From: Oceanobacillus zhaokaii
GTDB lineage: Bacteria > Bacillota > Bacilli > Bacillales > Amphibacillaceae
DNA length: 64,000 nt
Assembly (NCBI RefSeq): GCF_003352005.1
Contig: NZ_CP024848.1
Location: forward strand, 2,737,001 to 2,801,000
Direction of reading: 5' to 3'
In this document: positions 8,815 through 24,338 of the stretch, piece by piece
How the letters are laid out: every line of letters starts with the position of its first letter
How positions within the stretch are numbered: the first letter of the stretch is position 1
The notes under the pieces: model-generated
What the model was told of the DNA's origin: nothing
Seen by the model: only the letters and a program-made list of their open reading frames with translations
Database searches by the model: none
Translations under genes and position numbers: made by a program

Positions 8815-8874
8815 GGTGCCAATTGGTATGTCAAAATCGATGTCAATTCGGCTGTCAATTGCACTGTCATTTTA
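8815..8874 (+). repeat. 12-bp tandem repeat at left edge of array
   Basis: Five consecutive 12-bp units with consensus NNTGTCAATTNN, at 8815, 8827, 8839, 8851 and 8863. The first unit is GGTGCCAATTGG and the last ACTGTCATTTTA. Two units of the same pattern and orientation occur at 24443-24466, just inside the right flanking repeat. This looks like a protein-binding array or edge marker; no function can be assigned. Confidence 0.75.
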
Positions 8875-8967
8875 GATAGTATAGTTAGTTATTTAACACA
8901 AAAAGGACCTCTTTAAGAGATCCTGGCCAATTTTCTTAATCAACTAAAGCACCAGTTAATGTAAGTA
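8873..8967 (-). repeat. attC-like element 1 (left end, degenerate)
   Basis: The right half-site is CAACTAAAGCACCAGTTAAT at 8941-8960. A hairpin AGGACCTCT/AGAGATCCT lies at 8903-8924, and a decayed other half (ATAGTTAGTTATTTAAC) at 8881-8897. It is the leftmost recognisable member of the family. Confidence 0.6.
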
Positions 8968-9032
8968 CATTTTTTCACAAACTCATTATTTCCATCAAGC
9001 ATCTGAAAAAAGTAAATTCGTCATACATCAAT

Positions 9033-9510
9033 TTATGTACTTTGTAAACAACTCATTATTGTATCTCCGAAAGACCTGACATCAGATAAATAATCATATC
9101 CTTCTGGTGAACCAAAACTATTAAACATACGAACAGCAACCAAGTTTTCTTTAGGGATTACTAATATAGTAACACCTGTGTACATTTTGAAATATCCCAC
9201 AAAATTTTATTATCTCAACATCTATACCTGATTCTTCTTTTGTCTCTCTGATAGCAGCATCTTTCAATGATTCTCCTTCTTCGACTTGCCCACCTGGCAT
9301 CTCCCAACCTCTCAAAGGTCCCTCGATTAGTAGAATTTCCTTTTTTTCATTGAGTACAATAGTTGCCGCTGAAACAATATGTTTTGGCGGTGTCTAAATT
9401 CTTTGAGTACTCTGTTCCAATTAACTCACTCCCATTCAACATTTGTTTAACATAATTCTCTTTGAATTCAGTAATAAAATGTCTGTTGTAGATAACAATC
9501 CTCTTCCACA
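9033..9510 (-). pseudogene. mosaic of gene remnants: Nudix fragment joined to a beta-lactamase-family tail
   Basis: Three minus-strand remnants lie between elements 1 and 2. Around 9396-9510, codons read RHFITEFKENYVKQMLNGSE, which I cannot place. At 9182-9393 a Nudix hydrolase core is readable, with box residues GGQVEEGESLKDAAIRETKE followed by ESGI, but a TAG lies just before its first codons and no start remains. At 9033-9179, in another frame, TGVTILVIPKENLVAVRMFN runs to a stop and resembles the C-terminus of class C beta-lactamase-like serine hydrolases. A deletion appears to have joined two former cassettes. None of the pieces should make a working enzyme. Confidence 0.7.
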
Positions 9511-9540
9511 AACCTACTCCCTATTGTATGAATTCAACAA

Positions 9541-9587
9541 AAAAGGGCACTTCTCCTTCTTTAAGAAAAGCACCAGTTACTTGAATA
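9541..9587 (-). repeat. attC-like half-element 2
   Basis: One half-site only, with the core AAAGCACCAGTTACTTGAAT at 9567-9586. The partner half-site is not recognisable to its left, consistent with the deletion that fused the neighbouring remnants. Confidence 0.6.
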
Positions 9588-9638
9588 GCTTTAATCTTTA
9601 ATTCACTATTAAATCATTCAAAACTATAATATATTTTT

Positions 9639-9793
9639 TTAGCTATCCTTCCGAATATTATTGATATAACAACATACAAGTGTAATTGTTAAAGCAAATG
9701 GCTGGTTTAAGGTAAGCGGCCCAACTAACATTAACCCACCTATAATGATAATAGCCAAACCGAATACGATTGGTATTAAAGTTGTATTGAGAT
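9639..9793 (-). pseudogene. membrane protein remnant
   Basis: An open stretch of about 50 codons reads LIPIVFGLAIIIIGGLMLVG and continues to a TAA at 9639-9641. One clear transmembrane segment and part of a second are visible. No start codon is in frame, because a TGA lies at the upstream end, so it is a truncated or frameshifted cassette. A weak half-site (GTTAAAGCACTAAATAATTA, 9804-9823) lies to its right. Confidence 0.5.
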
Positions 9794-9821
9794 TTCATTA
9801 ATGTGTTAAAGCACTAAATAA

Positions 9822-10106
9822 TTAAACAATATTTTTAAGCCAAGTTACTATACGGAGAGCCTGAAATGGTTCAAACCAAGTTATTAAAAATAAGATAATA
9901 AAAAAAGAAACAAGTGATATAAATTTTAAACTACCTTTTTCATTTTTAAAGATAGCAATAAAACTAAATATAGCCCCTAACAATATAAAAATAGCTCCTA
10001 TAAATGCAATAAGTTCAGAATATCCCACTATAATCCAGTTTAATCCAAAGAAAAGTAATCCAAATATGATAAATACTATTGACCATATACTAATTGATTT
10101 CAACAT
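9822..10106 (-). CDS. small three-helix membrane protein of unknown function
   Basis: A 94-residue protein with three hydrophobic segments: an N-terminal helix around IWSIVFIIFGLLFFGLNWII, a second around LIAFIGAIFILLGAIFSFIA, and a third around ISLVSFFIILFLITW. The start at 10104-10106 follows GGGGGGA by 3-4 nt; the further upstream ATG is part of that ribosome-binding run. It forms a single-gene cassette, with element 3 directly upstream of its start. I do not recognise the family. Confidence 0.7.
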   Translation of the reverse strand: MLKSISIWSIVFIIFGLLFFGLNWIIVGYSELIAFIGAIFILLGAIFSFIAIFKNEKGSLKFISLVSFFIILFLITWFEPFQALRIVTWLKNIV

Positions 10107-10118
10107 ACATCCCCCCAT

Positions 10119-10251
10119 AAATCTAACCTGCCCCGTTAGTTCAATAACCCTTTAATTTAATATTAACATAATATTCCATACGACTTTCAAAAAATAAGAC
10201 GATCAATTTGATGATCGCCTTGTTTAACTCTTGCACCAGTTACTTTAATAA
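10119..10251 (-). repeat. attC-like element 3 (complete, 133 bp)
   Basis: First half-site ATCTAACCTGCCCCGTTAGT at 10121-10140; second half-site TTTAACTCTTGCACCAGTTA at 10223-10242. The inner hairpin is CGATCA/TGATCG at 10200-10217. A-rich sequence next to the hairpin would make it a terminator for minus-strand transcription. Confidence 0.8.
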
Positions 10252-10328
10252 GAGATAATTTAGCACATTAAAACTCTTAGATTTTTTATATTTAGGTTAT
10301 ATGAGTAAATAGTATAGTTGATATTAAA

Positions 10329-10411
10329 AGGACCACACATTTTATATGATGGTCCTAATTTATTCCTCTTCAACTAACCGTACTCCGATAATTTAAGTAC
10401 AATATTTCACA
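10329..10411 (-). repeat. attC-like element 4 (diverged)
   Basis: A hairpin AGGACCA/TGGTCCT (10329-10356) is followed by TTCAACTAACCGTACTCCGA (10369-10388), a hybrid of the two half-site types. The tail TTTAAGTACAATATTTCAC is nearly the same as the one after the rightmost half-site at 24.32 kb. The 10252-10328 stretch between elements 3 and 4 holds no gene, so it may be an empty cassette. Confidence 0.55.
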
Positions 10412-10510
10412 ATATAGATTTAAACTAAATAAATTATCACAGCATCAAACACCAGGATTTATCAGATATGAAAATAATGCTACTAAACACCATGAGTAGC
10501 CACTATTAAG

Positions 10511-11269
10511 TTACATTGGAGCTAATTCCTCTACTATTGTTTGTTTACCGTAATCATGACTCATCAATAGTTGAATAAGTTTTTCAGCAGTATCTAGAGG
10601 TGTTTGTAATTTTCCTTTTTCATGTAACTGATTAAATAATTCAACATATGGGAATTTTTCTTTACTTGTTGACCGTATTTCAGTTTGTAATTTCGTATCT
10701 ATTACACCTGGATAAACTGAAATAATTTTTACTGGAAAAGGTTTTTCTTTTTGTTCTAAATAAATACTTTTAGTAAAAGAATCCAGACCTGCTTTTGCAG
10801 TACTATAAGGGCTTTGGGAAGGAAGCAAATATTTCGCAGAACCAGACGAGATGTTTAATACTCTTTTGTCTATTTTCCAATTGTTTGTGTGTTTAATAAA
10901 CTGAGATGTAAGCAATATAGGGGCAATTAAATTCACATTTATATTTCTAATGACATCTTCACTAATAGTTTCTTCAATCGGTCCAATAGGGGAAAGAACA
11001 CCTGCATTATTGATTAAATAAATAGAATCAACATCATCTTCACTAACTAAATTAAATACACTTTGAAAAAGAGAATTAATATCGAATAAATTATTAAGAT
11101 CAAAAGAAAAGTTTCTTACATTATCGAATTTTAAACCTGCGTTGTCATATAAATTTGTACTCATACTTCTTGAAATACAAATAACATGGTTATTCTCATC
11201 ATTTAATAATATCTTTGCCAATGATTTTCCAATACCTCTAGAAGTTCCTGTTATAATAAAATACCTCAT
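10511..11269 (-). CDS. short-chain dehydrogenase/reductase, YueD-like
   Basis: NAD(P)-dependent oxidoreductase of the classical SDR family, 252 residues. Visible motifs are the cofactor loop TGTSRGIG, the NNAG motif, an active-site serine in NISSGSA and YSTAK with the catalytic Tyr and Lys. Overall pattern and length resemble benzil reductase/sepiapterin-type SDRs such as B. subtilis YueD, but the substrate cannot be read from sequence. It is the longest apparently intact enzyme among the left cassettes. An AGAGAGGT ribosome-binding site precedes the ATG. Confidence 0.88.
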   Translation of the reverse strand: MRYFIITGTSRGIGKSLAKILLNDENNHVICISRSMSTNLYDNAGLKFDNVRNFSFDLNNLFDINSLFQSVFNLVSEDDVDSIYLINNAGVLSPIGPIEETISEDVIRNINVNLIAPILLTSQFIKHTNNWKIDKRVLNISSGSAKYLLPSQSPYSTAKAGLDSFTKSIYLEQKEKPFPVKIISVYPGVIDTKLQTEIRSTSKEKFPYVELFNQLHEKGKLQTPLDTAEKLIQLLMSHDYGKQTIVEELAPM

Positions 11270-11300
11270 TTTGTTACCTCTCTTTCGATTATTTAACTAA

Positions 11301-11492
11301 CTATATTTTATCTTCCTCTTTTAATAGACCTTTAACGGTTCTTTCCACACCATTTATTATCATGATCAAGTTCTCCACCCATATTTTTCTATCACCGATA
11401 ATTTCTATTTCAGCTAAATAGTATGCGGATATCATTATCATTATAACTGAATATTCCCAACTTTCTTTGTAATTATTGCTCTCATCTCTTCT
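11301..11492 (-). pseudogene. remnant reading frame, unknown family
   Basis: About 63 open codons from element 5 to a TAG at 11301-11303, including ESWEYSVIMIMISAYYLAEI and KIWVENLIMIINGVERTVKG. No ATG, GTG or TTG starts the frame near a ribosome-binding site; an overlapping frame starts with ATG but stops after 14 codons, which suggests a frameshifted N-terminus. It shares a cassette with the SDR gene, so this interval may be two fused cassettes. I do not recognise the family. Confidence 0.4.
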
Positions 11493-11583
11493 TCAACTAA
11501 CCTGCCCCTATAGTTGAATAAGAAAAAAGAGATGCATAAGCAACTCTACTTACTTAAACTAAAGCCCCCGTTTAATGAAATAA
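11491..11583 (-). repeat. attC-like element 5 (complete, 93 bp)
   Basis: First half-site CAACTAACCTGCCCCTATAG at 11494-11513; second half-site TTAAACTAAAGCCCCCGTTT at 11554-11573. The inner stem is weaker here than in other copies. Confidence 0.75.
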
Positions 11584-11601
11584 GGTAATTTTATGATAAT
11601 C

Positions 11602-11973
11602 CTACCAGTGTACTTGAAGTTTATTACCATTCGTGTCATAAAAGTGGAAAAAGGCATGACCATTATCTTCTTTTATATCCTCAACCTTAACTTGATTATC
11701 AATTAAGTGTTGGTGAAATTTAGATAACTCAGGACTTGTAAAGCCAATGCTAAATTCTTGTTCATTATTAATTGTAAAATGTGCAAATGTTTCATCTTCG
11801 GTTGGAACTAGGATAAGTAAGAAAGGTCCTTCATTCACTTTTATAATTGCAAGTTCTTCAGGAATATTTAATAACTGGAGCCCTAATACATCTCTATACC
11901 ATTTTGCAGACAGTTCTAAATCTTTTACAGGAATTCTAATATAATGTACTTGTTCAATATATGATTTACTCAT
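11602..11973 (-). CDS. VOC (glyoxalase/bleomycin resistance) family protein
   Basis: A 123-residue single-module protein of the vicinal oxygen chelate superfamily. The opening VHYIRIPVKDLELSAKWYRD and the closing FHFYDTNGNKLQVHW carry the usual beta-alpha-beta-beta-beta spacing; the His near the start is a likely metal ligand. Members are lactoylglutathione lyases, dioxygenases or antibiotic-binding proteins, and the substrate cannot be assigned here. It is a single-gene cassette between elements 5 and 6, preceded by AAAGGAGAGAGG. Confidence 0.88.
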   Translation of the reverse strand: MSKSYIEQVHYIRIPVKDLELSAKWYRDVLGLQLLNIPEELAIIKVNEGPFLLILVPTEDETFAHFTINNEQEFSIGFTSPELSKFHQHLIDNQVKVEDIKEDNGHAFFHFYDTNGNKLQVHW

Positions 11974-12040
11974 AGACCTCTCTCCTTTAATTAATCTGGT
12001 ATATCAAATAGTTCCCTTTCTATATACCTTTTTCCTTTCG

Positions 12041-12130
12041 ATTATTGAATTAACCTGCCCCGTTAATATATAAATTTAACAAAAATAAGCGATAATCCTT
12101 TTTGGACTATCGCACCACTTAGTTCAATAT
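12041..12130 (-). repeat. attC-like element 6 (complete, 90 bp)
   Basis: First half-site GAATTAACCTGCCCCGTTAA at 12047-12066; second half-site ACTATCGCACCACTTAGTTC at 12107-12126. The inner hairpin GCGATA/TATCGC (12089-12113) with inner TCC/GGA pairs runs into the half-site itself. Confidence 0.78.
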
Positions 12131-12153
12131 GAATTTATAATGATGGAGGACTA

Positions 12154-12618
12154 TCAGACAGACAAATCGATAAATTCTAGTTCCATTTCTGCTTCTGCTT
12201 TCGAACGATAAACGGTAATTTTATCATAGGGTTTCAAGTTGTCTTGCCACGATCCTATATTACTCAGAAAATCTTCTCCGTTTTCAGAAATTACCAAGCA
12301 CTCTAAATGCTTATTGATATAACAAATTGGTGCGTCACTTTTCAAATCACATTGTTGACCAACAGTTCCGATAAATCCACCTTTACTATCTTTTGCCATA
12401 ATATCTACATATGGAACCGTATAAAATTCTAAATGTGGAATATCATCGTCAAAGATAAATTGAATATCATAATCGTTAGCATATTTTTGATACTCCTCAT
12501 TTTTATGATAAACACTCATAGAATAAATTCTTGTACCTGCTGGTATAACCTCAGTATCTTTTAAATTTACATTTATGGCTCCAGTTAATTCTGTTCTATC
12601 TAGATAAACTTTTCGCAT
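12154..12618 (-). CDS. hypothetical acidic cytoplasmic protein
   Basis: A 154-residue soluble protein with no signal peptide or membrane segment, rich in Asp and Glu. Segments such as EVIPAGTRIYSMSVYHKNEE and YVDIMAKDSKGGFIGTVGQQ are recognisable only as generic alpha/beta sequence. The start is supported by GGAGGTTGAG just upstream. It is the only gene between elements 6 and 7. I do not recognise a family; a role as an orphan immunity or sensor protein would be a guess. Confidence 0.7.
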   Translation of the reverse strand: MRKVYLDRTELTGAINVNLKDTEVIPAGTRIYSMSVYHKNEEYQKYANDYDIQFIFDDDIPHLEFYTVPYVDIMAKDSKGGFIGTVGQQCDLKSDAPICYINKHLECLVISENGEDFLSNIGSWQDNLKPYDKITVYRSKAEAEMELEFIDLSV

Positions 12619-12673
12619 CTCAACCTCCGTTTAATCTTATTTTAAAGTAAATGCTCATTACTTTTGTGATTTC

Positions 12674-12707
12674 TTATTGAACTAACCTGCCACTGTTTGT
12701 TTAAAAA
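12674..12707 (-). repeat. attC-like half-element 7
   Basis: The half-site TGAACTAACCTGCCACTGTT at 12679-12698 is clear. The partner half-site expected near 12.73 kb is absent, so the lipoprotein gene to the left of element 8 follows almost directly. Confidence 0.65.
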
Positions 12708-12739
12708 GGTTGTTTTTCACAATCATTGACTGTTATTGA

Positions 12740-13126
12740 TTACCCTTCAACTATTGCAAGGTATTTCAAGATTTCTCCTTCTAATTCAACGATTAAAATA
12801 TCTCCTCTTTCCTTGGCTGAAAAAATCTTTGCACCAACTGGAAGTTTATTTGCCATTTCATCTTTGAAATCTGTATTACTATCATTTTTTGTTTTTATTT
12901 CACCGATTTGAACGTCTTTTGTTAAAGGCAATTCTTCAACCCAATCGATATTAGTTTCATAAATTACTCCATCATACTGGAAAATATCAGCATCAGGATT
13001 CAATGTTAAGACTTCTTCAGCATCAATACTGTCACTTGTTACTGTGGTTGTTTCCCCTTCATTAGAACATCCACTAATTATAAATAACACTAATGCAATC
13101 AGTACGTAAAATAACTTTTTAGCCAA
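12740..13126 (-). CDS. small lipoprotein of unknown function
   Basis: A 128-residue protein with a lipoprotein signal: KKLFYVLIALVLFIISGCSN, with Cys after ISG. The mature part is acidic and contains DIFQYDGVIYETNIDWVEEL. I placed the start at a TTG (13124-13126) because GGGGG lies 7 nt upstream; a longer frame to 13183 would prepend residues encoded by element 8 and hide the signal peptide. It is probably anchored on the outer face of the membrane. I do not know the function. Confidence 0.72.
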   Translation of the reverse strand: MAKKLFYVLIALVLFIISGCSNEGETTTVTSDSIDAEEVLTLNPDADIFQYDGVIYETNIDWVEELPLTKDVQIGEIKTKNDSNTDFKDEMANKLPVGAKIFSAKERGDILIVELEGEILKYLAIVEG

Positions 13127-13175
13127 TGTAATACCCCCTTTATATATAGTCGGAAATACTCTATCATAAGTTTCT

Positions 13176-13262
13176 TCTTCCACTAACCTGCCCCTTTAGT
13201 AAAATAACTCCTACATAAAATAGCGTTAATCCTTCTAGAATTAACGCACCAGTTGATTTAAG
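13176..13262 (-). repeat. attC-like element 8 (complete, 87 bp)
   Basis: First half-site CCACTAACCTGCCCCTTTAG at 13180-13199; second half-site ATTAACGCACCAGTTGATTT at 13240-13259. The inner hairpin is GCGTTAAT/ATTAACGC at 13223-13247, fused to the second half-site as in element 6. Confidence 0.78.
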
Positions 13263-13317
13263 TAAGCCACTTCACAAGCTGTCAATATAATAATTCAAGC
13301 ATTAACTGAAATAAACT

Positions 13318-13626
13318 CTATTTTTTAAAACGATTTCCTGTATTAGCATAAATAAGTGAAAACACAACTATACCGATAAATAAAATGATACCGAGAACTA
13401 ATAACCAATTGATTTCATATACTTCACTAAGCACCCAAAGTATCATACTAGATGATAAAGCGAACATCACTTTTCCCATAAACTTACATAATGCAACCGA
13501 ATCATATTTGTCTTTTTCTTCTTGTGGCAACGTGTTAAATCCAGCAATTAATGAAGAACCTCTGCCACTAGATAGAATAATTCCAAATCCAACAAATAAG
13601 ACCATACCAATAACTGTACCAGTAAT
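13318..13626 (-). CDS. DUF3784 family membrane protein, apparent ATT start
   Basis: A small membrane protein with an N-terminal hydrophobic segment, the DUF3784 core SSLIAGFNTLPQEEKDKYD, then two further hydrophobic segments. A strong ribosome-binding run (AAGGAGGGGG) lies directly upstream of the ATT at 13624-13626, exactly where a start is expected, giving 102 residues. An upstream in-frame ATG at 13663-13665 lacks such a site. Either ATT initiates or the start codon has been lost by one base change. Single-gene cassette between elements 8 and 9. Confidence 0.65.
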   Translation of the reverse strand: MTGTVIGMVLFVGFGIILSSGRGSSLIAGFNTLPQEEKDKYDSVALCKFMGKVMFALSSSMILWVLSEVYEINWLLVLGIILFIGIVVFSLIYANTGNRFKK

Positions 13627-13710
13627 TCTTTTCCCCCTCCTTTTCATACATTTACTATCATACATCTACTTTTTAATACGACTAATTTTAGTAAATGTTT
13701 CACTTTAGGA

Positions 13711-13773
13711 CTTAACTGCTGCCTTACTTATAAGGAAGAAACATTACTTTTCTTTCAGTAATGCACCAGTTAG
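13711..13773 (-). repeat. attC-like element 9, interrupted by an IS110 element
   Basis: The second half-site TAATGCACCAGTTAG (13759-13773) is sharp and ends exactly where the IS sequence begins. The hairpin ATTACT/AGTAAT lies at 13743-13762. The first half-site is only weakly visible (ACTTAACTGCTGCCTTACTT, 13710-13729). Confidence 0.65.
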
Positions 13774-13861
13774 TCATACATGTAGCGCAAGACCAGCGCT
13801 ACACCACAGAGAATGAAAATGAATTTAGTTTGGCTATACTGATTCTACGGCTGGATGAGGA

Positions 13862-13964
13862 AGGTCGATCAACTATGGTGCGTTAGAGCCCTTCAGTTAG
13901 TCTGACTCCTTCGACCACGGTGCATCACAGACTGTCGCTCCCTTACGGGAAGCACTCATGGTAG
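13862..13964 (+). ncRNA. putative IS110 bridge-RNA guide region
   Basis: Within the IS leader, GGTCGA (13863-13868) can pair with TCGACC (13911-13916), closing a loop. The loop holds TGGTGC (13876-13881), the complement of GCACCA in the target half-site, and CAGTTAG (13894-13900), identical to the other target arm. A second region further on contains TCATGGTAG (13956-13964), identical to the right end of the IS. This two-strand logic matches the target and donor loops of IS110 bridge RNAs. RNA ends and expression are not visible, so this is an inference. Confidence 0.5.
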
Positions 13965-15362: not shown

Positions 15363-16028
15363 TTAATTTTCATGGTAGTAGAAGAGTGACACTAACAAAT
15401 TATACAAGGAATGAATAATAATTACTGACCAAAGAGATTTACTTTTCTTATATATAAATCCAAATATAATCCCCAAAACAAAAGTTGTTATTATGGGATT
15501 TAAAATATAAGGGAATTCAAGCAGCCCCTTATAAAACCAAATAGGAAAGTGAATCGATACAAAGAGTAAAGCCGTAATTGTATTTGCTATCCAGAATCTA
15601 AAAGAATCCCTAAGTTTTCTTAATAAAAAACCCCTAAAGACAATTTCCTCAGTTATTCCAACTAATAGAATAGTATTAAGCCATTCGCCAAACCCTATTT
15701 GAAAATCGATATTATTTTCTAAAATGGTGAGATTTAAAACTACATATGTTATGAAGACTAAGGATACCCAACCTGTCCATTTTAACCCTTTTCTAAAGTT
15801 ATGACGTAATCCTAAATAGGAAAACGGATTACTTTTTTCCATAATTTTAACTAAAAATATTACGGGAACGACCCAAATAACTATTTTAATAATGGCTGAT
15901 GTTATAGCTCTTGGAATAGAATCCATCAGATCTAAATATTGAACTAACCATAATTCTCTTATACACCATAGGGCATAAAATGTTATGAAATATACCCAAA
16001 TGTAATTTTTATTTACTTTTAATTCTAT
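15363..16028 (-). CDS. CPBP family intramembrane metalloprotease, apparent ATA start
   Basis: CAAX protease/bacteriocin-processing family membrane protein. The motifs EEIVFRGFLLRKL, LLFVSIHFPIW and the later IIHSLYN supply the Glu-Glu, Arg and His residues of the family. The uninterrupted frame extends upstream of the first ATG (15924-15926) to an ATA at 16026-16028 that follows AAGGGGAG by 6 nt. The added residues (ELKVNKNYIWVYFITFYALW and onward) look like the normal first helix. Its last codons (YYHEN, stop) come from the IS110 right end, so its C-terminus was altered by the insertion. Confidence 0.78.
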   Translation of the reverse strand: MELKVNKNYIWVYFITFYALWCIRELWLVQYLDLMDSIPRAITSAIIKIVIWVVPVIFLVKIMEKSNPFSYLGLRHNFRKGLKWTGWVSLVFITYVVLNLTILENNIDFQIGFGEWLNTILLVGITEEIVFRGFLLRKLRDSFRFWIANTITALLFVSIHFPIWFYKGLLEFPYILNPIITTFVLGIIFGFIYKKSKSLWSVIIIHSLYNLLVSLFYYHEN

Positions 16029-16047: not shown

Positions 16048-16182
16048 CTTCAACAATCCTGCCCCCAATAGTTAAATAACTCTCACTTCACAATACCACA
16101 ATATTCAAAAATATTTATTAAAGAAAAAGACAATCGTTTTGATGATTGCCTTGTTTAACTATTGCACCCTATAGTTAAATTA
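16048..16182 (-). repeat. attC-like element 10 (complete, 135 bp)
   Basis: First half-site CAACAATCCTGCCCCCAATA at 16051-16070; second half-site TTAACTATTGCACCCTATAG at 16155-16174. The inner hairpin CAATC/GATTG lies at 16131-16148, with AAAGAAAAAGA beside it. The spacer contains the shared phrase AATACCACAATATTC. Confidence 0.82.
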
Positions 16183-16575
16183 ACTTATTATCGGTACGAT
16201 CCGTTCTTCTGCCCAATGAAGTATAAACTGTTTTTGACGAGGATTTAAGTTTTCAGGTAAATCTTCTTTTCGAAAGAATCTATGTTCCTTACTTTCTAAT
16301 CCTCTTTGTTTTAGTACACCATCATATTTCCTTGCCTTAAAAATAACCTGAACACTATTGCACGAAACAACTTTCTCCTGAATAAATTCCAAATAACTCC
16401 AATCCATTTACTTCCAATCCTGTCTCCTCAAAAGTTTCCCTTTTAACTGTTTCTTCAAAGGTTTCCCCTATTTCCATTACTCCACCAGGAATACACCAAT
16501 TATCTTCATCAGTTCGATGCTGTAATAATATACATTCATTTTCTTCTATTACCAATAAACTTTCTCATATCTTTA
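16180..16575 (-). pseudogene. Nudix hydrolase, broken
   Basis: A Nudix hydrolase in two frames. The upstream part (to 16555) has the Nudix box GGVMEIGETFEETVKRETFE followed by ETGL; the downstream part (16180 to about 16380) continues VVSCNSVQVIFKARKYDG. A frameshift near 16370-16380 separates them. The N-terminus is also damaged: a short MRKFIGNR frame precedes VIEENECILLQHR in a different frame, so about ten residues were lost. It should be inactive unless both lesions are sequencing errors. Single-gene cassette between elements 10 and 11. Confidence 0.8.
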
Positions 16576-16637: not shown

Positions 16638-16768
16638 CTTGTACTAACCTGCCCGTTTAAAAATAAACTCCCTTTCCAATAATACCATAATATTCAATTA
16701 ATAATTACAAGAGAAAAAATCGACGGTTTATGGTCGCCTTGTTGAACTCTAGCACCCGTTTGTTTAAT
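16638..16768 (-). repeat. attC-like element 11 (complete, 131 bp)
   Basis: First half-site TGTACTAACCTGCCCGTTTA at 16640-16659; second half-site TTGAACTCTAGCACCCGTTT at 16742-16761. The inner hairpin is CGAC/GTCG at 16721-16736. The spacer has AATACCATAATATTC as in elements 10 and 13. Confidence 0.82.
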
Positions 16769-16797: not shown

Positions 16798-17784
16798 TTA
16801 TTGATCAGTAGCAAATGATTCTATGAATTCGTTAACTTCTTTACTCATTTCTTTATAACGAGTCCAATGAAGATAGTGATGCCCCTCTAAAGTTACAATT
16901 TTACTAGATGGAGAATTAGTTAATTGTGTTTCATAAAAAGTCACAAGGTTTTTACCATCCTCTGATATCCTATCTTCTTTCGTGGTGAAGAATAAAACTG
17001 GCATATTAGAAGCAAATTTCATATCTACTGTCTTATCAATATTGTTTTTTATTTCATTGACTTCGGTAACAACGTTCTTGTTAGAACTCTTCCAAGCCGA
17101 GATAGCCTTGGTCATTTCTAAATTTCCTTCAGAATACGTACCATCATTAGCAATAGGTAAAAAATCTTCGGGATTTATATATAATGCTAATCTTGCAATT
17201 CCGGTCGGTGCCAGATAACTCAAATATTCAGGCATTGTAGGAGCTTCTTCGCCAAAATATTTCAATGCTTGTGGTAATGTAGAATCTATACCTACTACAG
17301 CTTGCACTTCATCCGGGTACGTATTGGCATAATACATACTATATATGCCGGAAATGGAATGAGGCATCAATATGTATGGGCCTTGTATATCAGATTTTTT
17401 TAGAGCATATCTTATTTCTTCTACGATGTTTTCCACTGTTCGTTCTTTGTTAGTTATATCGCTCCATCCGTAACCAAACGGCTCTACCACTACGACCTTA
17501 TTTTTCTTTGCCATTTCATTTACCAAAGGTTCAAAATCCAGTGCCGGTGCAGCAGTTCCAGCACCACTTATTAAAACAATTGTATTATCGCCCTCACCCT
17601 TTGCATAAAGGTGCATATTCTTACCATCCACTTCAACTAATTCCCCTAATGGTGGATATTTTTTTTGTTCATATGCTGTCATAATGTTGCTGAAAATGAA
17701 CCAAATAGCAGATGCTGTCACTATTGCAATTAAAATATTCCTGAAAACTACCCAAAGTCTAAATTTCTTTTTAGTATTCTTCAT
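16798..17784 (-). CDS. alpha/beta hydrolase with N-terminal membrane anchor
   Basis: A single-pass membrane-anchored hydrolase of about 328 residues. After a basic start (MKNTKKKFRLW) comes a transmembrane helix (ILIAIVTASAIWFIF), then an alpha/beta hydrolase fold with the oxyanion region VLISGAGTAAPALDF and a nucleophile elbow around MPHSISGIYSMYYA (Ser in HSISG). A C-terminal histidine in LEGHHYLHW is a candidate catalytic base. The start is uncertain: in-frame ATGs lie up to 17835. The substrate is unknown. It is the longest cassette gene and appears intact. Confidence 0.83.
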   Translation of the reverse strand: MKNTKKKFRLWVVFRNILIAIVTASAIWFIFSNIMTAYEQKKYPPLGELVEVDGKNMHLYAKGEGDNTIVLISGAGTAAPALDFEPLVNEMAKKNKVVVVEPFGYGWSDITNKERTVENIVEEIRYALKKSDIQGPYILMPHSISGIYSMYYANTYPDEVQAVVGIDSTLPQALKYFGEEAPTMPEYLSYLAPTGIARLALYINPEDFLPIANDGTYSEGNLEMTKAISAWKSSNKNVVTEVNEIKNNIDKTVDMKFASNMPVLFFTTKEDRISEDGKNLVTFYETQLTNSPSSKIVTLEGHHYLHWTRYKEMSKEVNEFIESFATDQ

Positions 17785-18028
17785 AATTCCTATGGCCTTC
17801 TTTCTTTTTAATTCCATCATAACTTGGAAACGCATTCCTAGTAATGAACCTTAGAAATAAATTAAGATAGGCCTTGAGGCTTATTCAACTATCCTGCCCC
17901 TTTAGTTCAATAACTTAGCTTAATTTTAACATTAGCTTCCATTCGTTTCATCGAAATTATTTAAAAAATTATTTTATTCAACCATCTGGAAATGATGCTG
18001 ATAATTATAATTTTGGGGGTGAGCAATT

Positions 18029-18868
18029 ATGTTATTATCGGATGCAGCAAAGGGGTATGAGGCAGATAAGAAAATTGAGGGCTTTTCTGCACAAACATTA
18101 AATGCTTATAGGCTACAAGCTAAACTACTTATTGATTATTTGGGGAACATCAATATTAGTAATATAACAACCCTACAACTGAAAAATTATTTAGCTGAGT
18201 CAAGTAATAATTTAAAACCATCAAGTTTGTCCCATCGTATCAGATTTATACGTTCCTTATTTCGATGGTCACACGAGGTAGGTATAATTGAGTTAAATCC
18301 TGCAAGTAAAATAAAGGAACCAAGAGTTGGTAAACGTATTCCAAAGTTCCTTACTGAAAGAGAAATAGAATATTTAAGAGATGCGTGCTTCTCTCCAATG
18401 GAAAAAGCCTTATTTGAATTTATGTTCTCTACTGGATGTCGAATAGGAGAAATTGTTTCATAGGATTGAAATAGTATTAACTGGGGAAATCAATCTGCTA
18501 TTGTTAGTGGCAAAGGAGATAAGGAACGAGAAGTTTACTTCAATATACGTTGCGATATTTGGCTAAAGAAATATTTAGATAAAAGATACGATAACGATCC
18601 AGCAATATTTGTTACAGAATGCTCTCCACATAGAATGAGTATTGCTCAAATGAGGTATATTATTAAACGTATTTCAAAACGTGCAGGTATTAATAAAACC
18701 ATTCACCCTCATCAGTTAAGGCATAGTTACGCAACACACCTGCTAAATAATGGTGCCCCACTAGAAGTTATTCAAAGCCTGTTAGGTCACGAAAAAAGTG
18801 AAACTACAAGAATTTATGCAGAACTAAGTGGTAGACTACGACAAGAGTTTTATAGGAAGTATTTCTAG
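18029..18868 (+). pseudogene. tyrosine recombinase (Xer/phage type) with two nonsense codons
   Basis: Site-specific recombinase of about 279 codons. It has an N-terminal SAM-like core-binding domain (residues 1-95) and a catalytic domain. Active residues are visible: Arg in GCRIGEIV, Lys in GKGDKE, His-x-x-Arg in HPHQLRHSYATHLL, His in GHEKSETTRIYAEL and its Tyr. TAG at 18461-18463 and TGA at 18467-18469 interrupt the frame right after the first Arg; the frame is otherwise open and ribosome-binding site GGGGGTGAG precedes the ATG. One substitution in each codon (TTG or TTA to TAG is one or two changes, TGG to TGA one) would restore it. It lacks the extra segment of IntI integrases. It is transcribed opposite to the cassettes. 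Confidence 0.85.
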
Positions 18869-18910: not shown

Positions 18911-18960
18911 AAACTATTGCACCAGATAGTTGAACAAACCAAATCATTATTATGGAATGT

Positions 18961-19179: not shown

Positions 19180-19216
19180 TTTTTACATCCTTTCATCTCC
19201 ATATTAAACTAATATT

Positions 19217-19351
19217 CTCATTAAGTACCTGCCCCATTAGTTCAATAACTCTATACAATAGTACCATAATATTCTAAAAATATTGTTCAAAGAAAAAGAT
19301 GATCATTATGGTAATCGCCTTGTTTAACTATTGCACCATTTAGCCTAATAA
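19217..19351 (-). repeat. attC-like element 13 (complete, 135 bp)
   Basis: First half-site TTAAGTACCTGCCCCATTAG at 19221-19240; second half-site TTAACTATTGCACCATTTAG at 19324-19343. The inner hairpin GATGATCATTATGGTAATC lies at 19298-19316. The spacer has GTACCATAATATTC. Confidence 0.82.
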
Positions 19352-19362
19352 TAATCCGATTA

Positions 19363-20108: not shown

Positions 20109-20124
20109 TTGCTATTCCCATCTC

Positions 20125-20266
20125 CTTCTTCTACTAGCCTGCCCCGCTCAAGATCTCTGAATATAATACCATATTATTCCAAACAATTTACTCATTACTC
20201 CACAAATAAAAGGCGACCAAAATCTATGATCACCTTGTTAAACTCTTGCACCCGTTACTTTAAGTG
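20125..20266 (-). repeat. attC-like element 14 (complete, 142 bp)
   Basis: First half-site CTACTAGCCTGCCCCGCTCA at 20131-20150; second half-site TTAAACTCTTGCACCCGTTA at 20238-20257. A weak inner hairpin (GGCGACC/GATCACC region, about 20213-20234) is present, and the spacer has AATACCATATTATTCC. Confidence 0.8.
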
Positions 20267-20299
20267 CATTTCTTTACAATCTGCTTGAAGTAAATATTT

Positions 20300-21121
20300 T
20301 CAATCCCATTTTTTCCCTTTTCGATAAAGGTTCCTTTCGGATAATGCTAAAACTTTAGCAGTCGGTGGACGTGTCACTGTCGGTAGCAATATTTGATCAA
20401 AATAATCCGCATCAGCTAAAACGTTCCACGGTGAAACTCCGTAAAAAGCGTTTGCTAGATCTTCAAGGATGCCACTTGTAAAACTTCTGGCACCAATACT
20501 AGGGGTACCATTGAATTCTTCAGGAACGTCTTCCTTATGAATCCTAACATTCATACTAGCAATCACCTTCCAGCTGTGATTATCTAATGAATTAGATGTT
20601 AATGATAATATCGAAATAAATGGATTGTTTATAATTTCTTCTAAGGTTGGAACAGCGTTTTTATTAATATCAAATAACCCGCAAACAGGTTGTGTATAGT
20701 TTTTCCATAATACCTGTCCAAAGGAATATGAACCATCCTCTAAAAATATTTGAAATATATCTCCCACTTTCCATTTTTGTTTTCTAGGTCTTTTATGTGA
20801 GATTAATCGATTTTTGGTGATATTTATTTCTTCGGCGGATAAGTTCGCATTAGCTAGTTCGTTTATGACAATGGCTATCTCCAATATCAGTTCAGCATTA
20901 GTAGTACGTATAATAACAGCACTTGATTCATAATCAAAACCTATACGCTTGTATAAATACGGTTCAATCTTTTCTCTAACTGTTTTGCGTAGAAGCTTTA
21001 TTGCCTCATTATTAGTTTCCAATTTAAACAATTCAGCTAAATCATTATCAATAAGGAAATATGATGTTGATGCATCAGGTAGCAAGATTTCTACACTCCC
21101 TAATTTACAAGTGGTATCCAT
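20300..21121 (-). CDS. protein with Imm26-like immunity domain
   Basis: A 273-residue cytoplasmic protein. The N-terminal third is helical (DLAELFKLETNNEAIKLLRK). The middle KWKVGDIFQIFLEDGSYSFG followed by QVL matches the start of the immunity protein 26 family, found next to polymorphic toxins. The C-terminal part includes PSIGARSFTSGILEDLANAF. No partner toxin is seen nearby, so it would be an orphan immunity gene, a common kind of cassette cargo. The start has a GGGGAAATGAAAT upstream. Imm26 is assigned by pattern only. Confidence 0.65.
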   Translation of the reverse strand: MDTTCKLGSVEILLPDASTSYFLIDNDLAELFKLETNNEAIKLLRKTVREKIEPYLYKRIGFDYESSAVIIRTTNAELILEIAIVINELANANLSAEEINITKNRLISHKRPRKQKWKVGDIFQIFLEDGSYSFGQVLWKNYTQPVCGLFDINKNAVPTLEEIINNPFISILSLTSNSLDNHSWKVIASMNVRIHKEDVPEEFNGTPSIGARSFTSGILEDLANAFYGVSPWNVLADADYFDQILLPTVTRPPTAKVLALSERNLYRKGKKWD

Positions 21122-21186
21122 TATATTTCATTTCCCCTTTAATTTGAGAACTTCTTATTAAAATTATAACACCGTAAAAAGTCTGT

Positions 21187-21264
21187 TTCTGCAAGTAACC
21201 TGCCCCGATAGTTAAAAAAGGCTACGTATTGACGTTCGCCTTGTTGCATTAATGCACCAGTTAG
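21187..21264 (-). repeat. attC-like element 15 (78 bp), interrupted by an IS110 remnant
   Basis: First half-site CAAGTAACCTGCCCCGATAG at 21192-21211; second half-site GCATTAATGCACCAGTTAG at 21246-21264. The inner hairpin is GGC...GCC at 21220-21240. The IS110 relative begins at the next base, the same position as in element 9. Confidence 0.78.
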
Positions 21265-21446
21265 CCATTCATGAAGCGCAAAAACCTGCGCTTCACCACA
21301 GAGAATGAATGTTTGTTTCTATGTCTATAATGACTTTTGGGTACATTCACAACAATCTTGTCTCAGCATTTAAAAAAATCATAAAATGCTGGGTCTAGTT
21401 TGTTTTTGTCTTTTTTAGGATTTTCGGATGTAAACTTTCATGGTAG
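21265..21446 (+). mobile_element. internally deleted relative of the IS110 element
   Basis: It begins after GCACCAGTTAG with a hairpin TGAAGCGC/GCGCTTCA followed by CACCACAGAGAATGA, matching the left end of the IS at 13774. It ends with TTTCATGGTAG like the right end at 15378, and the AT-rich stretch before that also aligns. The transposase and the guide-like leader are missing, so it could only move in trans. The two hairpins differ by paired base changes. Confidence 0.75.
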
Positions 21447-21500
21447 TTGAAGAGGCAGCCATATCGCTTGAAGAAGGGATCTATTCAATTATCGCGCTAG

Positions 21501-21782
21501 TTAACTGATAAGCAGGTTTCCAAAATTGACGGAAAACAAGATAGAAAGGAAAATGCCAAATAGACTACAAAGAATACCCGTTACAGCTATTTTTTTTCCA
21601 TTTTGTTTAAAACGATTTATTTGTCTTACCCCTATGACACCATAAATTAGACCAATAATGCCAAGTATGAAGCCCACTGCCATAAAAGAAGTAACAATTG
21701 AAAGAGCCCCAAAGATTATTGATATCGTGCCTTTGCTATTAGCTTTACTATCACTAGCGTTTGAAACTTCAAGTTTACTAAT
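21501..21782 (-). CDS. DUF4190-like membrane protein, apparent ATT start
   Basis: About 93 residues: a short hydrophilic start then two hydrophobic helices separated by YGVIGVRQINRFKQNGKK, the DUF4190 hallmark. AAGGAGG lies 8 nt upstream of an in-frame ATT (21780-21782), where a start is expected. The only in-frame ATG (21870-21872) lies on the far side of the element 16 half-site, which would be translated into the N-terminus. Either ATT is used or the start was lost. The IS110 remnant lies just downstream of its stop. Confidence 0.65.
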   Translation of the reverse strand: MSKLEVSNASDSKANSKGTISIIFGALSIVTSFMAVGFILGIIGLIYGVIGVRQINRFKQNGKKIAVTGILCSLFGIFLSILFSVNFGNLLIS

Positions 21783-21840
21783 TTTTCCTGCCTCCTTTTT
21801 AAACTGAGTGGACCGATTGTGAACAAGATTTAACAATACT

Positions 21841-21993
21841 CTTAAACTAACCTGCCCCAGTTCAGTATCCATAAACAGATAATAACATAATGCTTAACCC
21901 TTTAATTGTAAATTTCTGAAATCAATAATAAAAGAAAATGACCATCATTTGATGATCTTACTTGTTTAATTATTGCACCCGTTAGTTGAATAA
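21841..21993 (-). repeat. attC-like element 16 (complete, 153 bp)
   Basis: First half-site TAAACTAACCTGCCCCAGTT at 21843-21862; second half-site AATTATTGCACCCGTTAGTT at 21968-21987, the closest to consensus. The inner hairpin ATCAT/ATGAT lies at 21944-21956. Confidence 0.8.
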
Positions 21994-22005
21994 GAAATCT
22001 TATAT

Positions 22006-22547
22006 TCACTTTAACTTTCGATGATTTTTTAGCATTTGTTGCAAATACTCTTCCGATTTTCCTTTAGGGATACTAAGGCTTTCCCATTCTTCATTTTTAA
22101 TTTGCTTACCCACATAAACAATTTGTCCGATATGATAAGCGTAATGAGCCATTTGCCTTTCAATCGCATCAATAACCGTATGGCTTTCGCCACGAATATA
22201 AATATTTTTTAATAAATCCTCTTCATTTAAATTATCAATTGTTTTAAAAAGAGTATTCCAACCTCTTTCCAATTAGAAATCATTTCTTGCTTTGATGATA
22301 TAGTGTTTACAAATTCTTGGTCACGTTTCCTATTGGTTTTTTCACCATCTGATGTTAAAAAATTCGTCCATCTTGAAATCATATTTCCACTTAAATGCTT
22401 TACGATAATTGAAATACTATTTGAAGATTTATTTAAAGCCCAATGTATATCGTCTTCTGATAATTGCTGTATTGTCTTATCCCCTAGTTCTTTAACACTT
22501 CTAAACCTAGCTTGGACTACTTTTAAATACTCATTCCCCACAGTCAT
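22006..22547 (-). pseudogene. DinB-like (DUF1572) protein, frameshifted
   Basis: A four-helix DinB/YfiT-type protein of about 179 residues split in two frames. The upstream part starts MTVGNEYLKVVQARFRSVKE and contains VKHLSGNM with the first metal-ligand His. The downstream part contains RQMAHYAYHIGQIVYVGK with the other His ligands. The break is at about 22265-22272: one extra G in TTGGAAAGAGG restores SNWERGWNTLFKTI. Members are often thiol-dependent metalloenzymes (bacillithiol transferases in this group), but this copy is probably dead. Confidence 0.8.
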
Positions 22548-22593
22548 TACGATCCACTCCCACCGATTAGTATCTACATTATAAAACTATATT

Positions 22594-22676
22594 CTTACGC
22601 TAAAATGCCCCATAGTAAAAGAGACCGTCATAATGACGATTTCATTGTTGAAGTAAAGCACCCTTTAGCTGAATAA
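22594..22676 (-). repeat. attC-like element 17 (complete, 83 bp)
   Basis: First half-site CGCTAAAATGCCCCATAGTA (22598-22617) is diverged; second half-site GAAGTAAAGCACCCTTTAGC (22650-22669) is good. The inner hairpin is CGTCAT/ATGACG at 22626-22638. Confidence 0.75.
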
Positions 22677-22698
22677 GAAGTGCGATTCATTTTAAGAA

Positions 22699-22921
22699 TC
22701 ACACTTCTATTTTATATTTAGATTCTGACTTTCTTAGTATTACTGCTCTTGCAATAAACACCGGTAAACCAGTAATTATGAATAGCTTAAGTAGGAGAAC
22801 TCACAAGGTATTATTTTGAGTTACATTTTTTGTATTCCAAACTACGTAATCCAACAATTAAGAAAAGAAATGCAGCAAATAAAAGCACTCTTGGAATAAG
22901 AGATAACAATAAGTTAGCTTA
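22699..22921 (-). pseudogene. membrane protein remnants
   Basis: Two short C-terminal fragments in tandem: RVLLFAAFLFLIVGLRSLEY running to a stop at 22811, and LLKLFIITGLPVFIARAVIL running to a stop at 22699. Neither has a start codon. They look like the ends of two different small membrane proteins left by deletions. Confidence 0.5.
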
Positions 22922-22997
22922 AACATGGAATACCAAGTATATTTAAGCTATTTGTAACAAAGATTATAACTAATACAGTCAAAAGGAGGTCGATAGA

Positions 22998-23183
22998 ATG
23001 GATGCACAACGAGCACAAGAAATTACTTCTTCACCAGATATTATTGATGTAACCTATAATGGAGAAGCCATTTACATTGAGCACGTGGATGAACAAAATG
23101 GAACAGCTACTATCCATTTCCTTAACGAACCAAATAATAAACAAAGTGTTTCTGTAACAAGCCTAAATGAACAAAATGTTTGA
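22998..23183 (+). CDS. sspH: small acid-soluble spore protein, H type
   Basis: A 61-residue SASP of the H family, a forespore-specific protein of spore-forming Bacilli. The opening MDAQRAQEITSSPDIIDVTY and the VTYNGEAIYIEHVDE core are diagnostic. An AAAGGAGGTCG site lies 4-5 nt upstream of the ATG. It is on the plus strand, opposite to the neighbouring cassettes, with its own terminator. There is no full element between it and the remnants to its left, so it may not be a standard cassette. Confidence 0.92.
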   Translation: MDAQRAQEITSSPDIIDVTYNGEAIYIEHVDEQNGTATIHFLNEPNNKQSVSVTSLNEQNV

Positions 23184-23199
23184 AGTATCCCATAACAAG

Positions 23200-23226
23200 C
23201 CTCCACCTTATAGTGGGGGTTTCAAC
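23200..23226 (+). terminator. sspH terminator
   Basis: CCTCCAC and GTGGGGG form a short stem around CTTATA, followed by TTTC. It lies 16 bp after the sspH stop. Confidence 0.75.
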
Positions 23227-23516
23227 TTTTGATCAAAATAATTTGAGTATTACCTCAACCATTCACCTAATCTTCTTAAGAACAGGCTCTGTTAAAGCTT
23301 AATGTTGATATGAGGTTAAAGAAATTAGAACTTCCCGGTTATCTGTAAGTTCTAATTCGTAGTCAGGATGGTGCGGTGCCCTTGATACTGACTAAACTAT
23401 CCATTTCAAAACTCAATAAATTATTTATACGTTTTACCTCATATTCCCTCATATTTTATCCCCTTTTAATTGCCTAAGTATTGTAGTTTTAAAAAACGCC
23501 GTATTGACGATCTCCT
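23227..23516. other. gene-free stretch with possible transposon-end remnant
   Basis: I see no gene here. GGCTCTGTTAAAGCTTAATG at 23285-23304 looks like the terminal repeat of an insertion sequence, and TTAGAACTT/AAGTTCTAA forms a 9-bp hairpin just downstream. I cannot find the matching other end, so this is probably a relic. AATTGCCTAAGTATTGTAGT (23468-23487) may be a decayed half-site of element 18. Confidence 0.35.
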
Positions 23517-23547
23517 TGTTGTAATAAAGCACCAGTTAGCTTAATAA
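23493..23547 (-). repeat. attC-like half-element 18
   Basis: The half-site AATAAAGCACCAGTTAGCTT lies at 23523-23542, preceded by an inner segment CGCCGTATTGACGATCTCC. That segment and the start of the half-site are the same as in element 19 over more than 30 bases. Confidence 0.7.
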
Positions 23548-23583
23548 GATATAAAAATATAGATTGAATCGATTATATTTACC

Positions 23584-23772
23584 CTAAAAGGTAGTTAGAT
23601 AATTCACAAAGACAAGGGTAAGGAATATGGAAAAGAAAATAATTCCCTTTTGTATTCGATTCCTTTTTTTGAACCAATTCCACCTTTGACTATCAGTGCT
23701 AAACATTATGTAATCTATAATAGCAAATAAAAGTATCCCAAATGTTACCAATGTAAATTCCAAAATAGTCAT
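23584..23772 (-). CDS. small membrane protein of unknown function
   Basis: A 62-residue protein with two hydrophobic helices (LVTFGILLFAIIDYIMF and GIIFFSIFLTLVFVNYL) around a basic loop DSQRWNWFKKRNRIQKG. The ATG at 23770-23772 touches its AGGGG ribosome-binding run, so an in-frame TTG four codons later may be the true start. Single-gene cassette between elements 18 and 19. No family recognised. Confidence 0.6.
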   Translation of the reverse strand: MTILEFTLVTFGILLFAIIDYIMFSTDSQRWNWFKKRNRIQKGIIFFSIFLTLVFVNYLTTF

Positions 23773-23829
23773 CCCCTAATTCATTCTTAACTATAATTCA
23801 TACGTTATATTTATTAAATAGTTTCGTCC

Positions 23830-23915
23830 CTCTTTAAGTAAACTGCCCCTTTAGTTAAAAAAGACCGCCGTATTGACGATCTCCTTGTTGTAATAAAGCA
23901 CCCGTTAGTTGATTA
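23830..23915 (-). repeat. attC-like element 19 (complete, 86 bp)
   Basis: First half-site TAAGTAAACTGCCCCTTTAG at 23835-23854; second half-site AATAAAGCACCCGTTAGTTG at 23893-23912. The stop codon of the next gene falls inside the second half-site. Confidence 0.8.
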
Positions 23916-24207
23916 ACATCTCCCCTTTTATTTCAAACCAAATATTCTCTACTATCACTAAACATATGATTGCTAAAATAAAGGCTGTTACAGAGAGTAC
24001 GACCTTGTTTCGTAACCTGGTATTGAACCGTATGTACAACTTTCCTATCAAGCTGATAAGCAGTATAAAGATAGGAGCTGTTATAGCTATTGCTATTAAA
24101 TCAACAAGAGAAAATGGTTTGCTGATGTATGGGTCAGAATAGATATTGAGAAGAAGAAGTGCGATAAATAAGACGAATTGATAAATAAAAAATCTTACAG
24201 GACTCAT
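23905..24207 (-). CDS. three-helix membrane protein of unknown function
   Basis: A 100-residue protein with three hydrophobic segments: FIYQFVLFIALLLLNIY, LIAIAITAPIFILLISLIGK and VLSVTAFILAIICLVIVENI. Its TAA stop (23905-23907) is supplied by the conserved half-site of element 19, as is common where integron cassettes end at their recombination site. It is the cassette nearest the right end, which would be the most recently captured one in an integron model. The start follows AAGGGA by about 11 nt. Confidence 0.68.
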   Translation of the reverse strand: MSPVRFFIYQFVLFIALLLLNIYSDPYISKPFSLVDLIAIAITAPIFILLISLIGKLYIRFNTRLRNKVVLSVTAFILAIICLVIVENIWFEIKGEMLIN

Positions 24208-24290
24208 AAATGATGGATTCCCTTCTATGTAGTGTTATGTAAAGTATAAATCCTCAAAGAAAAAATAAATAAACTTTTAAGCCAACTTGT

Positions 24291-24338
24291 CTTGTTGAAC
24301 TATCCTGCCCCGTTAGTTTAAGTACAATATTTCACAAA
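24291..24338 (-). repeat. terminal half-element 20 (candidate attI-like end)
   Basis: The half-site TGAACTATCCTGCCCCGTTA at 24295-24314 has no partner half-site to its right. On the minus strand it lies upstream of the first cassette gene, the position of the primary attachment site in an integron. The tail TTTAAGTACAATATTTCACA is shared with element 4. Confidence 0.65.

Follow-up and report, generated by a model that had tools for sequence, protein, structure and literature searches.

The array and its recombination sites

We analyzed a 64-kb window (the whole stretch of DNA studied; NZ_CP024848.1, positions 2,737,001 to 2,801,000) of the Oceanobacillus zhaokaii chromosome, in which an array of mostly single, minus-strand small genes separated by short repeat elements lies between yitT and an alpha/beta hydrolase gene (Table 1). 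A preliminary description of this stretch had read the elements as integron-like attC sites, each with two half-sites. We found eight matches (at most three mismatches) to each consensus half-site, all on one strand and all inside 10.1-24.3 kb, against 0.00 and 0.05 expected from dinucleotide shuffles. Hence, the array of repeat elements is real.

The site consensus is TCTTATTg-AACTAAC-spacer-GTTAGTT-gAAgAAG, an inverted repeat of ~35 bp. There are two types, distinguished by the spacer: H1 has GGGTGC (6 bp) and H2 has GGGGCAG (7 bp), with the left box AACTAAC common to both. Logos from 543 distinct H1 and 429 distinct H2 sites have mirror-image arms of ~14 bp around the 6- or 7-bp spacer. The same arm-spacer-arm layout is seen in loxP and dif, core sites on which tyrosine recombinases act in double-stranded form. 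By their sequence, the "half-sites" read as two complete, independent simple sites rather than as halves of attC, and what lies between them, be it a terminator or the recombinase gene, reads as exchangeable in its own right, which speaks against the earlier attC assignment.

Scanning the window with a retrained weight matrix (score at least 10), we found 29 minus-strand sites between 8942 and 24318 and one plus-strand site (12321); the remaining ~48 kb held three scattered matches (1682, 53210 and 56103). Nine pairs of sites are at most 160 bp apart and two further partners are degenerate (~16047 and ~20127), so the paired elements described previously are present, but number nine to eleven here, depending on the threshold, instead of twelve. 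A second flavor of left arm, ending in ACTTA or ATTTA (TTGTGAAnnATTGTACTTA), precedes 186 sites and the leader; in the window it occupies 24319-24337 and 8962-8980.

The genome is one contig of 4.10 Mb with further arrays. In 13 other stretches (0.855-2.048 Mb), selected by pattern or recombinase matches and so not a whole-genome count, we found 133 sites, all on one strand, at a score of at least 16. Together with the 27 of the window at this score (stray matches included), there are ~160 sites. The reversed-matrix control over the window and the 13 stretches gave 7 and 2 matches versus 110 and 70. The idea that replichore sets array orientation was dropped, since two leaders, at 3.01 Mb and at 3.99 Mb, run against it. 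Elsewhere, two genomes with 43 (G337) and 62 (G426) matches to the H2 core (at most one mismatch) are candidates for very large arrays.

An Xer-like recombinase is linked to the sites

Between two sites, and opposite to the cassettes, the array carries a 279-codon gene for a tyrosine recombinase, interrupted by two in-frame stops (TAG and TGA). A paralogue with one TGA is present in the array at 1.15 Mb. Hence, the cluster is not integrase-less, one of the two possibilities raised in the preliminary description. A fragment of a recombinase domain was also seen near 1.547 Mb. The closest named recombinases, from Oceanobacillus, are 94% identical, and Pfam finds the core-binding and catalytic domains of a simple (Xer-like) tyrosine recombinase. 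Among 20 aligned relatives, R138, K162/K165, H228, H254 and Y263 are invariant and R231 is kept in at least 90%; we take these residues to have the R-K-HxxR-H-Y catalytic roles.

With the integron integrase model TIGR02249 (integrase_gron), six relatives scored 82-100 bits versus a cut-off of 265, and in this genome no match spans model positions 188-232 and none is above the cut-off. Hence, the curated model does not place the array recombinase among the integron integrases. The best family scores of P0003, an intact recombinase of the O. profundus type, are 216 (XerA), 215 (XerD) and 211 bits (XerC). Across the six relatives, the XerA model is narrowly missed (203-219 versus 220 bits, with a shortfall down to 0.8 bits), and scores of 200-215 bits for the XerC and XerD models are under the cut-offs of 335 and 330. 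The best relative with a solved structure is XerD (123 bits). Two intact, strongly matching genes elsewhere in this genome (312 and 316 codons) are likely XerC and XerD.

Counting broken copies, 30 of 159 genomes in the family carry a relative of the array recombinase at E ≤ 1e-60; across the order, its distribution is patchy (54 of 299 genomes at E ≤ 1e-80). A named genome collection yielded 387 matching stretches, from which 78 distinct loci were retained; many of these relatives are intact. With matches in 8 of 72,556 plasmid records (E ≤ 1e-60) and in four phage records (34-36% identity, E ≤ 1e-40), we rejected carriage of the system by plasmids or phages.

In the 78 loci, which come from many genera, 713 of the 724 sites with a score of at least 16 (401 H1 and 312 H2) are on the strand opposite the recombinase gene and the other 11 (9 H1 and 2 H2) on its own strand, while the reversed-matrix control gave four matches. 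At least one site is present in 76 of the 78 loci. An H1 site follows the recombinase stop within 110 bp in 55 of the 76 loci with flank (typically at 39-53 bp), a site precedes its start within 150 bp in 45 of 76 (often at 67-81 bp), and both occur together in 32 of 78. Across the 299 genomes of the order, co-occurrence is only moderate: a 17-mer of the site is found in 67, the recombinase in 54 and both in 20 (hand count, Fisher p 0.007; two matches for the backwards-pattern control). The linked recombinase is the likely agent of unit exchange.

Genes and terminator-like segments recur as separate units

We compared all array stretches against each other with BLAST, which gave 276 pairs at no less than 88% identity over at least 150 bp. 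From these, 126 blocks were used (at least 90% identity, under 8 kb, recombinase-containing blocks excluded). Of these, 35 start and 40 end where one copy or both have a site; site windows make up 2.0% of the bases. Both copies end in a site in 28 pairs, and in 21 of these the two 7-bp left boxes, many of them unusual variants, match exactly, versus a mean of 1.45 and a maximum of 6 with random partners (2000 draws). The next six bases are identical in nine pairs, positions 13-19 in none, and in several pairs the part that follows is of H1 type in one copy and of H2 type in the other. Seen from the upstream side, 42% of pairs differ at the first spacer base, and seen from the downstream side 31% do, as an exchange spanning the spacer would predict.

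A gene unit typically starts with the right part of an H2 site and extends as far as the left box of the site that follows, and copies of a gene across arrays and genera usually keep this left box and then diverge in the spacer or right part. For example, the rare box AACTAAT marks one gene in Gracilibacillus, Paucisalibacillus (two strains) and Virgibacillus, with three different parts after it. Longer copies are also shared between Gracilibacillus and Paucisalibacillus (99.7% over 6.25 kb) and between Neobacillus and Mesobacillus (99.2% over 6.2 kb), and both end in, or a few bases from, sites.

Terminator-like units instead start with the right part of an H1 site and reach to the next left box; most are 42-62 bp long, with longer forms of up to ~130 bp. 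Of 237 short H1-headed units, 67 fall into 20 families at 90% identity or more, and some are identical over 50-62 bp. Both flanks differ in 91 of the 96 unit pairs with at least 90% identity, and 19 of the 20 families include such a pair. Hence, with breakpoints at the left box and terminator-like units recurring between different neighbors, genes and terminators are separate units. The preliminary description had named, among the results that would undo its reading, elements that are ordinary genome-wide terminators. The elements do carry terminator-like hairpins, but these turn up between different neighbors as units of one array, so this objection does not hold. In one locus, two identical 62-bp terminator-like units stand in tandem (L134:3435-3560, cassette strand).

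A terminator scan of 8600-24600 found 17 terminator-like sites versus 6.8 expected (sd 3.4). Pairing of the right half of the site with the downstream strand of the hairpin was considered and holds for a subset only, 37 of 606 H1 heads (at least 9 of 10 pairs), versus 0.5% with swapped tails and 0 of 457 H2 heads.

The array lies in a transposon-like unit with its own leader

The array unit spans 8662-24507 (15.8 kb) and its ends are 25-bp inverted repeats with one mismatch between the copies. Outside it stands a 9-bp direct repeat, ATCGTATGG, whose copies at 8653 and 24508 are the only plus-strand ones in the window. Read by eye, the unit sits in the apparent loop of the yitT terminator. The second array of this genome, at 1.1495-1.1787 Mb (ends near 1149529 and 1178685), has the same 25-bp inverted repeats and its own 9-bp repeat, likewise in a hairpin (by eye). 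Arrays bounded by these inverted repeats show recurring TGTCA/TGACA motifs immediately within their left end. Among the window open reading frames (ORFs) examined, no transposase for the 25-bp repeats was recognized, the only transposase there being of the insertion sequence IS110 family. Whole arrays may also move as a transposon-like unit, with a 9-bp duplication and perhaps a transposase acting in trans.

As the preliminary description had proposed, we compared the interval from yitT to the hydrolase gene in relatives. Both flanks are present in five genomes of the same genus. The interval is ~2.0 kb in two of them (G067 and G064) and 0.15-0.2 kb in two others (G080 and G089), with no sites in all four; in the fifth (G081), it is ~11 kb with one weak site match.

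Six places of this genome share a leader. In order, it comprises the inverted repeat, which is degenerate at one or two of the places; a terminator-like hairpin, present at most of them; an extended -10 promoter-like motif (by eye); the arm TTGTGAAATATTGTACTTA; and then the first site. The leader resembles Pc-attI in position only; its promoter, together with the first site, would act like Pc-attI and is predicted to drive the first cassettes. A promoter scan of the array found no excess (62 versus 77 in shuffles), and Rfam at gathering cut-offs found only a tRNA in the window.

Cargo and insertions in the sites

The cargo of the window includes a short-chain dehydrogenase, a glyoxalase, a DUF3784 protein, a CAAX protease, a NUDIX protein, an alpha/beta hydrolase, and Imm26, DUF4190 and DUF1572 proteins; several further units have no Pfam match. 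Across the loci, 300 of 324 gene units hold an ORF of at least 60 aa, with a single one in 264 and none in 24; the longest ORF is on the site strand in 263 and on the opposite strand in 37.

Table 1. Features of the array unit in the 64-kb window, by position
Feature	Positions	Strand	Basis
Left 9-bp direct repeat ATCGTATGG	8653..8661	.	Exact 9-mer search of window
Left terminal inverted repeat TAAAGAGTTCCGTTTTGAGGTGCAT	8662..8686	+	One mismatch vs right copy; same repeat bounds second array of genome
Last array site, H1 type	8942..8961	-	Weight matrix
Site, H1 type	9563..9582	-	Weight matrix
Site pair with terminator-like hairpin	10121..10245	-	Weight matrix and terminator scan
Gene unit: short-chain dehydrogenase	10511..11269	-	
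Site pair	11495..11576	-	Weight matrix
Gene unit: glyoxalase/VOC protein	11602..11973	-	
Site pair with terminator-like hairpin	12048..12124	-	Weight matrix and terminator scan
Site pair; its terminator-like unit has relatives of at least 90% identity in other arrays	13181..13258	-	Weight matrix and unit comparison
Gene unit: DUF3784 protein	13318..13665	-	
Site, H1 type, left box beside IS110 insertion	13756..13775	-	Weight matrix
Gene unit: CAAX-type membrane protease	15363..15926	-	
Site, H1 type, degenerate H2 partner near 16047	16157..16176	-	Weight matrix
Gene unit: NUDIX protein, frame apparently broken	16355..16555	-	
Site pair	16642..16764	-	Weight matrix
Gene unit: alpha/beta hydrolase	16798..17835	-	
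Site, H2 type, upstream of recombinase start	17887..17907	-	Weight matrix
Xer-like tyrosine recombinase gene, opposite to cassettes, TAG and TGA interruptions	18029..18868	+	
Site, H1 type, 44 bp past recombinase stop	18912..18931	-	Weight matrix
Site pair, long type	19222..19345	-	Weight matrix
Site, H1 type, degenerate H2 partner near 20127	20241..20260	-	Weight matrix
Gene unit: Imm26-domain protein	20300..21121	-	
Site pair, H1 left box abutting IS110-type end	21193..21266	-	Weight matrix
Gene unit: DUF4190 protein	21501..21872	-	
Site pair	21845..21987	-	Weight matrix
Gene unit: DUF1572 protein	22227..22547	-	
Site, H1 type	22651..22670	-	Weight matrix
Site, H1 type	23522..23541	-	Weight matrix
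Site pair H1-H2	23836..23910	-	Weight matrix
First recombination site, H2 type, attI-like by position	24298..24318	-	Weight matrix
Leader ahead of first site, with terminator-like hairpin, arm TTGTGAAATATTGTACTTA and a promoter-like motif of extended -10 type, TATGGTATAAT (24352-24342)	24319..24482	-	Promoter and hairpin by eye
Right terminal inverted repeat TAAAGGGTTCCGTTTTGAGGTGCAT (minus-strand reading)	24483..24507	-	Sequence comparison
Right 9-bp direct repeat	24508..24516	.	Exact 9-mer search

Insertions also occur within the sites. An IS110-family element (~13776-15376) and a remnant (~21266-21450) each lie beside a site left box in the window, which also holds an IS110 transposase gene. 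In several copies, IS110-type ends abut the left box with AACT before the insert and CTAAC after it, and related copies in other arrays split the left box with CT at both edges. Among six loci searched, group II introns (Rfam RF02005) were found in two (L128 and L143) and start at the equivalent spot of the site; the same intron start is also seen in sites of L148, L152, L156 and L097, the Rfam search having covered, of these loci, L128 and L143. IS110 relatives are known to insert in attC.

Proposed mechanism and its weaknesses

These results point to an array in which directly repeated ~35-bp inverted-repeat sites delimit two separate kinds of unit, genes and terminator-like segments, and which is likely shuffled by the 279-aa Xer-like recombinase whose gene such arrays contain. 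The recombinase would bind both arms of a site and cut at the spacer edges, so that the left and right parts of any two sites would be joined. A gene between two sites could be released as a circle and inserted at a different site, and the mobile terminator-like units are predicted to terminate transcription between neighboring genes.

Several points weigh against this mechanism. Excision, circle formation and integration are predictions from sequence, and both recombinase copies of this genome (E ≤ 1e-60) are broken. Most blocks begin (91 of 126) or end (86 of 126) away from detected sites, the breakpoint pairs are not independent, with several from one gene family, and some blocks run from H1 to H1 and so carry a gene plus its upstream terminator-like unit (L041/L045 and L044/L049). 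Among the loci compared, with one genome per species, there was no clean case of a single cassette present or absent in near-identical backgrounds. Linkage is also incomplete: two loci (L112 and L160) have no site at a score of at least 16, 21 of 76 have no detected H1 after the recombinase and 31 of 76 have no upstream site. Co-occurrence is moderate, with 47 of 67 site genomes lacking the recombinase at the cut-off and 34 of 54 recombinase genomes lacking the 17-mer. Finally, the inner boxes of paired sites pair slightly more than in shuffles (z 2.95, p 0.0024, 190 elements), as a folded attC would.

Alternatives and comparison with known systems

The elements contain terminator-like hairpins and are numerous (~160 sites in the stretches examined), so they might be dispersed terminator-bearing repeats around which genes accumulated and which ordinary homologous recombination rearranges. 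This is highly improbable, since breakpoints cluster at one edge of a 7-bp box in a ~35-bp site, between unrelated sequences and across genera, and homologous recombination over so short a match is not expected to give such edges. Decidedly improbable, too, are modules like plasmid dif (pdif) that depend on host XerC/XerD, with the linked recombinase as a passenger. The size and two-arm architecture of the sites are dif-like, and the likely XerC and XerD genes are intact here while the array recombinases are broken. The pdif/dif modules of Acinetobacter plasmids likewise hold genes between short two-arm sites with a 6-bp spacer and crossover in the sites, but their XerC and XerD arms differ and their sites alternate in orientation (PMC13141974). 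In the arrays, by contrast, the arms are mirror images, the sites are direct repeats (713 versus 11 by strand), and a dedicated recombinase gene adjoins them in many genera. The site sequence also appears unlike the dif consensus.

If this were a true diverged integron, H1, hairpin and H2 would together form one folded, single-stranded attC, the recombinase would be a diverged IntI, and every cassette would be a gene with an attC of its own. This explanation is improbable, although several features fit it. The outer boxes resemble RYYYAAC/GTTRRRY, most units hold one gene, the cassettes share an orientation, the recombinase gene is opposite to most of them, and a leader with a promoter-like motif stands ahead of the first site. 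The sites harbor IS110 ends and group II introns, much as attC harbors related elements, the best-matching NCBIfam model, XerA, is described as 'site-specific tyrosine recombinase/integron integrase', and the array lies within a transposon-like unit, as do arrays of integrons and of clusters of attC sites lacking integron-integrases (CALINs). Group IIC introns are known from integrons (PMC7923331). Against this, outer R-box pairing has no covariation across 190 elements (z -0.16), and the inner-box signal is weak and of a kind that shared ancestry could give; folding as attC was rejected on these grounds. In most cases, the gene moves without the segment between H1 and H2, and single H1 or H2 sites apparently act as boundaries alone: 84 H2-H2 and 188 H1-H1 neighbors are 160-3000 bp apart, numbers that undetected degenerate partners may inflate. 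An integron cassette is a gene with its own attC, bounded at R'; here, the same gene is followed by different H1 or H2 parts, with a few H1-to-H1 blocks to the contrary. The sites look complete and of double-stranded type, terminator-like units recur apart from genes, and the recombinase gene lies within the array without the IntI-specific stretch. As for an attI beside the integrase gene, the picture is mixed: a site lies within 150 bp upstream of the array recombinase in 45 of 76 loci, but leaders with the first site are elsewhere.

Integrons are extremely rare in Firmicutes in a published survey, in which IntegronFinder 2.0 reports one complete integron (Limnochorda pilosa) and a few CALINs (PMC9024848). 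Integron searches would likely miss the present system, because its recombinase fails the IntI model and its sites are not attC-like by covariation and unit exchange. We found no description of the system in open-licence papers. If our reading is correct, Bacillaceae and their relatives possess a gene-capture platform of their own, which in the stretches examined of one genome is as large as a chromosomal integron and whose arrays assemble both genes and their insulation; mobile terminators of ~50 bp would be an unusual class of shuffled unit. The recombinase and its two site types would give a sequence handle on gene exchange in Bacillales and possibly a recombination tool.

The array recombinase resembles the XerA/XerC/XerD subgroup in its best family scores, its best solved relative and its two-domain length of 279 aa, but differs in scoring under every curated cut-off and in being array-linked and patchy. 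From each of the closest systems, integrons and dif modules, the arrays differ in at least two of the features tested. The preliminary description of an integron-like capture system in Bacillota thus stands in function, in that the cassette array appears to work like an integron with breakpoints at the elements, yet not in membership, since no IntI insertion and no outer-box covariation were found and the supposed attC mostly does not move with its gene. Hence, we propose that this is probably a third kind of cassette shuffling, distinct from both integrons and dif modules: single genes and ~50-bp terminators would be two interchangeable classes of unit, moved by a dedicated Xer-like recombinase, and the arrays would have spread between genera. 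Gram-positive bacteria would then have an equivalent of the integron that is made of other components.

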